DNA of 5,115 nucleotides, taken from the NCBI GenBank assembly GCA_003647525.1, contig QMMZ01000202.1, positions 1 to 5,115 on the forward strand, given 5' to 3'. The DNA comes from Deltaproteobacteria bacterium. GTDB lineage: Bacteria; Desulfobacterota; Desulfobacteria; Desulfobacterales; ETH-SRB1. Under the pieces are notes generated by a model. The model did not search any database and was not told the origin of the DNA. It saw only the letters and a list, made by a program, of their open reading frames with translations. Both the position numbers and the translations under genes were made by a program. Below, in pieces: positions 2,945 to 5,115 of the stretch (positions are counted from its first letter, which is position 1; each line of letters opens with the position of its first letter).

Positions 2945-3003
2945 CATTAACGATCAAAATGTGCCGCCCGGCTTTTTGGGTCGGCACCATTTGTTGGTTC
3001 GCT
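2945..3003 (-). other. attC: attC site B (integron cassette recombination site)
   Basis: Read on the minus strand: R'' AGCGAAC (2997-3003), spacer CAAC, arm AAATGGTGCCG (2982-2992), loop region rich in A and G/C, arm CGGCACATTT, spacer TGATC, R' GTTAATG (2945-2951). Arm pairing is complete except for one extra G in the gene-proximal arm, the same polarity as sites A and C. It begins three bases after the stop of the nuclease gene. The G/C stem (GTGCCG with CGGCAC) followed by ATTTT could also work as a weak terminator, so the hairpin alone is ambiguous. The exact match of AGCGAA to the TTCGCT opening the same cassette decides for attC. Confidence 0.75.
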
Positions 3004-3926
3004 ACCTTACGTCGTTGATTGTGCAAATTCGACCCTCAACCTATAACAAACAATTTCGATTTTCGGTTTTTTCTTTGCCGCTCGGATAACGTCTGTAGCA
3101 AGTTTTTGGGCACCCGAATGCACTAGTATCCCTCTTGCATTTTGCCCTGTTTGTTTTTCCAGATTCAAGACATAGCTGCGAAGCTGATTAATTTGCTTAA
3201 CTGACGCTGTATGTTGCTTGCATTCAACGATAACAGGTACTCCTCGGCGATCTAACAACAGAACATCAAGACGAGACTTGTCTTTGAATACCATTTCCCT
3301 GATCTTCATATTTGGGTGTGGTAAAAGTCCGTCTTCCAAGTGATTGGGATAAGTAGCTATATAATCGGACAGTGATTTTTCATACCCGAACTTGCCCAAC
3401 AGGCCAACCCAATTACGAGGATCATTCATTACCTTACGGACTTGAGCGATTGTTCGGGAATGAATTTTGCTTATCGTTGGACGCAGTTCCCCAATCGTAA
3501 ACGTAAATCTAGGTGGAATTTGTATGACCATATCAGTATCTTCGGGGCCTGTTGTCAACTCCCATCGAACCAGAATCCGTCGGCCCTTGTCTCCATGAGG
3601 CATCAAAGGTCCTTTGGGAACGAGGGGGTCCCATTCGTCATCCGCGATTCTTTTTCCAACAATCTCTCCCAGCCTACCAATCCTGTGACCTTTCAATGCA
3701 ACAAGAATAAGATCTCCCATAGCCATTTCTTTGATGGCATTACGTGCAGCGCTCCAACCCCTGCTGCTTCCCTCACTTTTTCCATCCAATTTATAGCCAC
3801 GCTCACTCGACCATCCAACAGCTACGCACTGGTTCTTGAACCATCTTTGCCACATTCCAGGATACTCATGTTCTTGGCAAGCAACCTTCCAGAGTGTTGT
3901 CATTATATTTTCCTATATTAAGCGAA
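2951..3926 (-). mobile_element. Integron gene cassette carrying the EVE-NucS-like nuclease gene
   Basis: A unit of 976 bp between the crossover points in the R' boxes of sites A and B. It opens with TTCGCT, and its own distal R'' is AGCGAAC, a perfect complement. It contains one gene with a 23-base leader and its attC. The leader holds a ribosome site but no room for a full promoter, so transcription probably comes through from the preceding cassette. Confidence 0.8.
3007..3903 (-). CDS. EVE/PUA-like domain fused to NucS-like PD-(D/E)XK endonuclease
   Basis: A 298-aa predicted DNA endonuclease. Residues about 1-135 (WKVACQE, W18..W21F, CVAVGW at 26-31, GDLILVALKGHRIGRLGEIV at 63-82) look like the EVE/PUA-type fold that in other proteins reads modified bases; this is the less certain half. 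Residues about 165-290 match the C-terminal nuclease domain of NucS/EndoMS (DUF91): an acidic residue in HLEDGL (Glu190), RLDVLLLD (Asp213), VIVECK (Glu227, Lys229) and QLRSY (Gln240, Tyr244). These give a complete PD-(D/E)XK site with the Q-x3-Y motif. It is not an orthodox NucS, since the N-terminal half differs. A modification-dependent (type IV-like) restriction enzyme is the best inference; a repair nuclease is the alternative. AGGA lies seven bases before ATG. The gene fills a 976-bp cassette: its start is 18 bases from the incoming GTT core, and its stop lies just before site B. No methyltransferase is in the window, which fits a modification-dependent enzyme. Confidence 0.88.
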   Translation of the reverse strand: MTTLWKVACQEHEYPGMWQRWFKNQCVAVGWSSERGYKLDGKSEGSSRGWSAARNAIKEMAMGDLILVALKGHRIGRLGEIVGKRIADDEWDPLVPKGPLMPHGDKGRRILVRWELTTGPEDTDMVIQIPPRFTFTIGELRPTISKIHSRTIAQVRKVMNDPRNWVGLLGKFGYEKSLSDYIATYPNHLEDGLLPHPNMKIREMVFKDKSRLDVLLLDRRGVPVIVECKQHTASVKQINQLRSYVLNLEKQTGQNARGILVHSGAQKLATDVIRAAKKKPKIEIVCYRLRVEFAQSTT

Positions 3927-3986
3927 CGCTGCGCCTGACCAGCGGGCGCGGTTTTTAGCCCGGCTGCGTCCAGGCGATTGTTAGCA
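3921..3986 (-). other. attC: attC site A (integron cassette recombination site)
   Basis: Read on the minus strand: R'' TGCTAAC (3980-3986), spacer AAT, arm CGCCTGGAC (3968-3976), an inner imperfect stem, arm GTCAGGCG (3932-3939), spacer CAGC, R' GTTCGCT (3921-3927). The arms pair perfectly except for one extra G in the gene-proximal arm, which is the extrahelical base that orients attC sites. The site exactly fills the gap between the stop of the HARE-HTH gene and the ribosome site of the nuclease gene. Its outer boxes do not match each other well but match those of the cassettes on either side, as expected for a junction of two cassettes. Being a long hairpin, it may also attenuate transcription. 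Confidence 0.85.
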
Positions 3987-4995
3987 TAATCATTTTTTCG
4001 AACCTATTACGAGATTGTCTACTACTTTTAAAACTGACGTATCCCAAGGGTAGTCCTCCTTTCTTTTCATCCATTGTTCTGCCTTCGAATAAAAAATTGT
4101 ATCGGAGGCAACGGGGATAAAAAATTGGGATATAATTTCTTTCATGATGAGCCATTCGCCTTCCAAATCATTTTTTATAGTTGTATTTCCACGTAAAAAC
4201 CAAAGAGTATATTCGCGATCGATAGGCGGTATGACATTTGGTAACATGTGATGCATAACTTTTGAATTTCCAACAAGGGAAGTCCCACTTGCCATCACCT
4301 TAACACCACAAAATATTTCTTCTAACACGGCCCACTTAATTTCGGACATTTCGCGAAAGTCGAATGTTTGTGCCTCAGCAATCCTGCCTTTTAGTGTCTG
4401 GACGCTTTGGGAAAAAACTTCAAAGCTGCGCATTTTAGAACCACCTCTACCCATTCTATGCATGCCCCAAGAGGAAAGAGTTGCGTAGACATATTCCAAG
4501 TGAGTCAATGATGCTGGATCATACCGGGTGGCCAAAGCGCGTTCATGAAAGTAAAGACTAGGACCGCGAAAGGTCTCAGCTTTGTAGTAAGCATCATGAC
4601 AATTCTCAGCGTTTGACAGTATTTTTCTGATTTTATCGTCGTACATGATTTTTCTTCCACCGGGAGTTCTGTGGCGAGGTGCTTCTGAGCCTACCTTGGG
4701 TCTGTGCGTCAGATTTTCAAAGTTAGATAGGGAAATTTTCATTGGTTTGGTGCTTTTGTCGCATTGGAAAATATCACTTGTCCCAGTAAGGCTGTAAATT
4801 TGTGCCAAGAGTGCATGATCGAGATCTTTGTAATGGCCTTTTTCAACATTTCTATGATGTGAAGGGGTTCCGTAGAAATCAGGATGGTTCATTTTCACTT
4901 GGTCCCTGATCTCTTGCGGTGTCATTGGATCGGAGATTGATGATAAAATATTTTTGACAACATCACTGAATTTCATTTTTCCTCTATGATGCTAA
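3927..4995 (-). mobile_element. Integron gene cassette carrying the HARE-HTH-like gene
   Basis: A unit of 1069 bp, bounded by the expected crossover points between G and TT in the R' boxes of sites C and A. It opens with TTAGCA, and the R'' of its own distal site is TGCTAAC, a perfect complement, so the circular form would have a symmetrical outer box. It contains one gene, almost no leader (18 bases) and its attC, which is the standard cassette layout. No promoter is apparent in the leader, so expression probably depends on upstream transcription. Confidence 0.8.
3990..4976 (-). CDS. HARE-HTH-like protein with conserved C-terminal domain of unknown function
   Basis: A 328-aa protein. Residues about 1-85 resemble the HARE-HTH winged helix (MKFSDVVKNIL, PMTPQEIRDQV at 17-27, GTPSHHRNV near 36-44, LLAQIYSL at 56-63, IFQCD at 69-73, then a strand at KISL), a domain found in some restriction systems and chromatin factors and thought to bind DNA. 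Residues about 105-328 form a second domain that I recognise only as a conserved, unnamed family, with YFHERAL at 142-148, WGMHRMG at 170-176, LVGNSKVMHHMLP at 234-246 and PPIDREYT at 250-257. The conserved His, Asp, Arg and Lys could line an active or binding site, but no known catalytic motif is complete and no function is claimed. GAGG lies only four bases before ATG, a rather short spacing. The gene fills a 1069-bp cassette, with the stop four bases before the R'' core of site A. Its neighbour in the array is a putative nuclease, so a defence role is possible but unproven. Confidence 0.85.
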   Translation of the reverse strand: MKFSDVVKNILSSISDPMTPQEIRDQVKMNHPDFYGTPSHHRNVEKGHYKDLDHALLAQIYSLTGTSDIFQCDKSTKPMKISLSNFENLTHRPKVGSEAPRHRTPGGRKIMYDDKIRKILSNAENCHDAYYKAETFRGPSLYFHERALATRYDPASLTHLEYVYATLSSWGMHRMGRGGSKMRSFEVFSQSVQTLKGRIAEAQTFDFREMSEIKWAVLEEIFCGVKVMASGTSLVGNSKVMHHMLPNVIPPIDREYTLWFLRGNTTIKNDLEGEWLIMKEIISQFFIPVASDTIFYSKAEQWMKRKEDYPWDTSVLKVVDNLVIGSKK

Positions 4996-5080
4996 CGACA
5001 AGCTAACTTGGCGCGGCGCTCCAAATGTTATATTTCGCAACCGCTGTCATTCCGCGATCAAGTTAAGCGACAGGTTCTGC
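4990..5080 (-). other. attC: attC site C (integron cassette recombination site)
   Basis: Read on the minus strand: R'' GCAGAAC (5074-5080), five-base spacer CTGTC, arm GCTTAACTTG (5059-5068), a variable middle of about 50 bases with a further short pairing (CGCGG with CCGCG), arm CAAGTTAGC (5001-5009), five-base spacer TTGTC, R' GTTAGCA (4990-4996). The arms pair except for one extra T in the gene-proximal arm. An alternative reading uses GCTTAAC and GTTAGCT as the outer boxes; the wider reading is preferred because GTTAGCA is then matched by TGCTAAC at the far end of the next cassette. The HARE-HTH gene starts 13 bases after it. Confidence 0.75.
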
Positions 5081-5093
5081 GGCGGCCATGCCT

Positions 5094-5115
5094 TTAATCA
5101 TCTGAAATTCTAACT
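5094..5115 (-). CDS. Possible 3' end of the preceding cassette gene (partial)
   Basis: Upstream of attC site C the end of another cassette gene is expected. One minus-strand frame reads VRISDD and stops at 5094-5096, 13 bases before the R'' box. A second frame stays open to a TAA at 5063-5065, inside the site. With only about 20 bases available, neither choice nor product can be supported further. Confidence 0.2.

Follow-up and report, generated by a model that had tools for sequence, protein, structure and literature searches.

Three minus-strand sites, very probably attC, and two probable single-gene integron cassettes in a deltaproteobacterial contig

The attC recombination sites of integrons have RYYYAAC and GTTRRRY as their core consensus. 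The extra bases of the attC bottom strand are described in PMC3053210 as sitting on one side. Here we report on three sites in a stretch of 5,115 nt of contig QMMZ01000202.1 (the window hereafter; positions are given on the window and features lie on its minus strand unless stated otherwise), which are very probably the attC sites of an integron cassette array with two complete single-gene cassettes, A and B, between them. The array, whether it belongs to an integron or is an orphan cluster, is a fresh instance of a well-known system and not a new type of thing; its interest lies in cassette A and in the fact that three sequences without detectable likeness can be recognised as attC through their structure.

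Two kinds of described system are closest. With sedentary chromosomal integrons and clusters of attC sites lacking integron-integrases (CALINs) the locus shares attC sites of a structural kind, one gene per cassette, a single gene strand, short leaders and cargo of no known function; it differs from them in that the window holds only three sites, which are mutually unlike, and in that integrase and attI are unseen within it. With the class 1 arrays of mobile integrons (L110-L113) it has in common the spacing of the cores, the arms and the extra base, and class 1 sites are represented in both of the covariance models used below. Unlike in class 1 arrays, the cargo is not a named resistance gene, and the window sites score 19-28 bits whereas class 1 sites reach up to 77 bits.

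Geometry and model matches of the three sites

The listing of open reading frames (ORFs) gives three long genes in the window, all on the minus strand, and the proposed sites lie 3' of gene B (3007-3903, 298 aa, with a NucS_C-type nuclease domain at its C-terminal end), 3' of gene A (3990-4976, 328 aa, family unnamed) and 5' of gene A, respectively. Site 1 (2945-3003) reads AGCGAAC, 9 nt, GTGCCG(A)CCC, loop, GGG.CGGCAC, 9 nt, GTTAATG; site 2 (3921-3986) reads TGCTAAC, 9 nt, GAC(G)CAG(C)CGGGC, loop, GCCCG.CTG.GTC, 9 nt, GTTCGCT; and site 3 (4990-5080 or 4991-5080, depending on the model) reads GCAGAAC, 9 nt, AACTTG(A), 47 nt, CAAGTT, 8 nt, GTTAGCA. The outer limits placed by the models thus coincide with the span 2945-5080 of the original prediction. 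AAC and GTT cores are present in all three sites, with deviating outer core letters (e.g. GTTAATG, GTTCGCT), and sites 2 and 1 start 3 nt past the stop codons of genes A and B, respectively. Cassette A (3927-4995, 1,069 nt) runs from the G^TT of site 3 to that of site 2 and has a leader of 20 nt; cassette B (2951-3926, 976 nt), bounded by sites 2 and 1, runs from the G^TT of the former to that of the latter and has a leader of 24 nt. Since attC-type sites bound both, genes A and B are likely portable cassettes.

The original prediction held that the three gaps share one layout on the minus strand, that their sequences differ almost completely and that one extra base sits on the gene-proximal arm in each. 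The second claim is borne out: the pairwise identities of 50, 45 and 52% do not exceed the maxima of 57, 51 and 52% that were found in 100 shuffles per pair. As to the third, the alignments to the models put paired inner arms, with the extra base(s) on the gene-proximal arm, in three of three sites, so the polarity stands, and the extra base is A in sites 1 and 3; the wording 'one' is exact for site 1 only, because site 2 bears at least two extra bases (read as G, then C) and in site 3 a mismatch adjoins the extra base. The shared layout was assessed with covariance models.

We built two models of our own. In the training sites AAC is followed by a spacer of 9 nt, an arm of 6 nt and one extra base (nearly always A); after a part that varies come the matching arm, a further spacer (about 9 nt) and GTT. 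The first model (R1) was made from 15 aligned sites of known type with 15 base pairs, taken from the plasmid class 1 arrays and from two contigs (L047, L103) of a single genome that has an integron integrase, the window sites being excluded. Run without filters, R1 gave six matches in the window at E up to 10, the top three of which are the three sites, led by site 3 (here starting at 4990; 20.2 bits, E 0.0015) and site 1 (18.8 bits, E 0.0032). The second model (R2) was made from 41 sites, namely those that R1 had matched, with an E of at most 0.006, in 33 loci elsewhere; the window, locus L001 (see below) and sites like site 2 were not among them. It recovered all three sites, on the minus strand (site 1: 27.7 bits, E 1.1e-5; site 3: 22.6 bits, E 2.1e-4; site 2: 21.6 bits, E 3.7e-4), and the best other of its five window matches scored 7.1 bits (E 1.6). 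The layout was therefore found in three of three gaps with R2, and above noise in two of three with R1. A published metagenome pipeline takes an attC at 20 bits or more of its own model, provided that another lies within 4,000 nt (PMC7370490), a cut-off that belongs to that model and is cited for comparison only. R2 detected attC at six of ten integrase loci (L124-L133) whose genomes had not contributed to its training. Covariation within the alignment used for training is strong (11 of the 15 pairs altered on both sides; score 0.512 versus a shuffled mean of 0.120), as scored on the same structure to which that alignment had been fitted.

Other searches were less telling. A hand-written attC descriptor gave site 1 a score of 34.5, and scores of 34 or higher are expected 0.07 times per shuffled window; it was rejected as a detector, as its best score (36.5) was a chance match on the plus strand in the CHAT gene of the left flank and sites 2 and 3 were missed. 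A stricter descriptor, used for locating the training arrays, had zero window matches at its threshold. Rfam yielded five matches (E up to 10), each of them well short of its gathering score and none to an attC family; one of these, to CRISPR-DR32 (22.9 of 48 bits), overlies site 2.

Cassette A and its relatives

The closest full-length relative of gene A among the DNA compared (81% protein identity) is encoded at L001 (QMMV01000256.1, G001:C256), a 4.1-kb contig of a deltaproteobacterial metagenome-assembled genome. Gene A is placed there between two 61-nt repeats that are 90% alike and closely resemble the sequence of site 2. When the window's A region is aligned locally to L001, the alignment runs from 5016 to 3925 and ends with the GTT of site 2, and a blastn alignment runs from 5003 to 3925; because the upstream G^TT is at 4996, the similarity break is exact downstream and 7-20 nt off upstream. 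Identity is 83.2% (897 of 1,078 columns) from one G^TT point to the other, whereas the 60 nt outside these points are 46.6% and 48.5% identical, which is inside the range of 200 shuffles. The two loci are thus alike in cassette A and its near-identical attC, and unlike in the neighbouring cassettes. On the aligned DNA, cassette A appears to have been exchanged as a unit between the G^TT points. Also in L001 is an integrase match (TIGR02249, the integron integrase family; 319 bits versus a cut-off of 265), which diverges from the cassettes and adjoins at least three attC matches; unlike an intact gene, it is incomplete (positions 110-315 only) and contains one internal stop. Another contig of the same genome (G001:C20) has a longer integrase match. 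No transposase was noticed in L001, though no search aimed at transposases was made.

We aligned six sequences of the site-2 type: the window's, those before and after gene A in L001, and those after gene A in L006, L009 and L031. In this alignment 95.6% of the cells pair, which none of 500 shuffles reached, and the same holds for the covariation score and for the count of cells altered on both sides. The number of pairs altered on both sides (three) was reached by 61 of the 500 shuffles and that of pair types by 230; the covariation rests on six related sequences, which are few. Judged by these comparisons, site 2 is secured as an attC by the near-identical sites that adjoin relatives of gene A.

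Gene A has 1,036 homologues, and we searched 62 loci with R2 (of 61 genomic loci one, a twin, was set aside, and two viral ones were added); two gene B loci were searched alongside. A match directly 3' of gene A was found in nine of them (L001, L006, L009, L021, L031, L042, L043, L047 and L057), starting between -6 and +9 nt relative to the stop codon; the match in L006 has an E of 0.1 only, and the sites after gene A in L021, L042, L043, L047 and L057 had themselves been used in the training of R2 (R1 E up to 1.9e-4). The orientation of the matches is consistent: 15 of 15 R1 matches at E up to 1 and 19 of 20 R2 matches at E up to 2 are on the plus strand, which at the gene A loci is the strand of the gene, the exception being at a locus of gene B. 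With an attC at its stop codon in nine genomes, the widespread and unnamed family of gene A is placed among integron cargo. Such an attC was not found after gene A in the remaining 53 loci, so gene A also occurs outside recognisable arrays, and at E up to 2 the two viral gene A loci and one viral gene B locus were without an attC match.

The array weighed against its alternatives

A number of results weigh against an integron array: i) R1 leaves site 2 at noise level (7.3 bits, E 1.5), and since its fourth match, within gene B on the opposite strand, scores 7.2 bits (E 1.6), R1 alone is no proof of this site; ii) seven of the R2 training loci (L009, L021, L031, L042, L043, L047 and L057) carry gene A, so that R2 depends in part on the gene A family; iii) folded alone as a bottom strand, site 3 is undistinguished, 125 of 200 shuffles being as good for the full site, and a shortened stretch likewise gave no signal; iv) an integron integrase was found in 10 of 48 genomes with gene A, versus 131 of 395 sampled genomes of G001's phylum (above the family cut-off), for which reason co-occurrence with gene A was dropped as evidence; v) L123 carries a full-length gene B without an attC match at the gene, the sole match lying about 4.8 kb away on its 5' side; vi) gene B was not found as a cassette elsewhere in 395 and 47 further genomes, with matches in three of the former (one full-length) and partial matches in three of the latter; and vii) integrase and attI are unseen within the 5,115-nt window. 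The folding test, which the original prediction had proposed as a check, came out in favour of site 1 (only 4 of 200 shuffles as good) and weakly so for site 2 (16 of 200); two class 1 attC sites, taken as control, out-folded 200 of 200 shuffles.

The explanation that survives best next to a complete integron accepts the attC sites as real and takes them as an orphan cluster without a neighbouring integrase, which would be moved in trans only, or no longer. We consider this a serious possibility, somewhat short of even. The three long window genes include no integrase according to the family searches, the integrase match of L001 is incomplete and interrupted, site 3 folds poorly, and PMC7923331 reports most of 28 hypersaline metagenomes with CALINs and not with full integrons. 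Conversely, the window is too short to tell, as the array leaves it at the right edge, where an integrase would lie, and the longer match on G001:C20 belongs to the same genome as L001.

That the array continues rightward follows from site 3, which is part of a preceding cassette with a gene truncated at the window edge. A possible C-terminal ORF tail of that gene (5063-5113), open in one of the three frames, has its stop codon inside site 3 and is too short to identify. On the left side the array likely ends at site 1, because the start codon that follows, that of the CHAT-TPR gene, is 229 nt away and no attC match was found with R2 after that gene. The view of the window as an interior slice of an integron is therefore probably half right: it holds on the right, where a cassette is cut, and probably fails on the left, where site 1 is the likely last site of the array.

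That the sites are chance hairpins, transcription terminators or other intergenic palindromes resembling attC is disfavoured and very improbable. The noise-level R1 score of site 2, the fold of site 3 and the chance matches given by simple descriptors would fit it; against these are three R2 matches of at least 21.6 bits within 5.1 kb, in the expected gaps and on one strand with the next at 7.1 bits, the break of the cassette A similarity at G^TT, and the attC at the stop codon of gene A relatives. IS200/IS605-type elements and group IIC introns use folded single strands or sit at attC. Hairpin ends or targets of such an element can practically be dismissed, since, even if group IIC introns and an IS200/605 element have been described beside a CALIN (PMC7923331), the family searches found neither transposase nor reverse transcriptase among the three long window genes, and each unit consists of one unrelated gene and one site, with attC cores and extra bases. 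The integron cassette array of the original prediction is thus upheld by the models, the strand and position of the sites, the paired changes at site 2 and the break of cassette A at the exchange points.

Both cassettes are likely excised and inserted by an integron integrase that is encoded elsewhere and cuts the bottom strand, in its folded form, at G^TT. Judging from known integron biology, the extra bases would pick the bottom strand, which is the plus strand of the window, and by this choice would set the orientation of the cassettes. As the cassettes read leftward, an integrase in cis would be expected to the right.

Predicted cargo, flank and other observations

Gene A was without a match in Pfam, PADLOC, NCBIfam and PHROGs. 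The protein is predicted, from structure models, to consist of a winged helix (about residues 1-85) and a helical, DNA-glycosylase-like C-terminal domain. Foldseek returned nothing at E 0.001 for either gene A model; the C-terminal domain was matched to 8-oxoguanine DNA glycosylases at E 1.4 at best, and a profile of it had no credible match to solved structures by sequence. From the archaeal and Thermotoga 8-oxoguanine DNA glycosylases the protein differs by the added winged helix and by a low identity of the C-terminal domain (8-12%). Invariant K and D residues in the family are candidates for the catalytic lysine and aspartate of a glycosylase. Among plasmid records gene A was matched over its first 85-87 residues only, in two records (NZ_CP041744.1 and NZ_CP100184.1), by proteins annotated as GIY-YIG nucleases. 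Many gene A loci match the C-terminal part alone; as the two parts recur separately, they seem to be swapped as modules. The relative at L016 (2083-2778) is interrupted, within the stretch that matched, by a single in-frame stop codon.

Gene B matched PF01939 (NucS_C; 32.5 bits, cut-off 24) and the NucS structure 2vld (E 2e-9), and has 880 homologues. It fails the full-length NucS equivalog NF003270 (50.3 bits versus a cut-off of 216, residues 169-273 only) and had no match in plasmid records. The window DNA as a whole was likewise without a match in plasmid records, as was the part from 3900 to 5115 in phage records.

A defence role of the A and B cargo, directed at foreign DNA, is a guess. 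In its most specific form, cassette A would found a new family of integron-borne defence enzymes, in which a winged helix would pick the DNA and a diverged Ogg-type glycosylase would remove modified bases from DNA that invades the cell; it would have spread across phyla in the form of a ready-made cassette and, in the window, would adjoin a NucS_C-domain nuclease able to cut the damage that results. We regard this as rather unlikely. In the metagenome survey of PMC7370490 about two thirds of the integron genes are reported as of unknown function and defence genes as over-represented, and for that reason cassettes like these are places to seek new defence enzymes.

The remaining long gene of the window, the CHAT-TPR gene (443-2722; CHAT E 2.5e-69), encodes a protein with an N-terminus that by eye resembles a lipoprotein signal and with a weak NCBIfam match, below the cut-off, to the type III-E CRISPR protease Csx29 (62.5 of 300 bits). 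The gene is flanked by an imperfect direct repeat (132-262 and 2857-2966; local alignment score 63 versus a maximum of 49 in 200 shuffles), of which the core (183-228 and 2888-2933) is 76% identical and the right copy overlaps the last arm and the GTT core of site 1. The repeat was rejected as a further attC, since R2 had no match at the left copy.

Two further loci contain elements that resemble long attC sites. In L101 (14800-17650), beside an integrase of G012, there are repeated elements of about 180-200 nt that by eye resemble very long attC sites in which each arm has an extra base; R1 gave one weak match in L101, elsewhere. In L109 (NZ_CP083584.1), a plasmid of the cyanobacterium Kovacikia minuta, an annotated integron integrase is accompanied by long attC-like sites between genes, and this region adjoins genes for a DNA cytosine methyltransferase and a TIR-domain protein.

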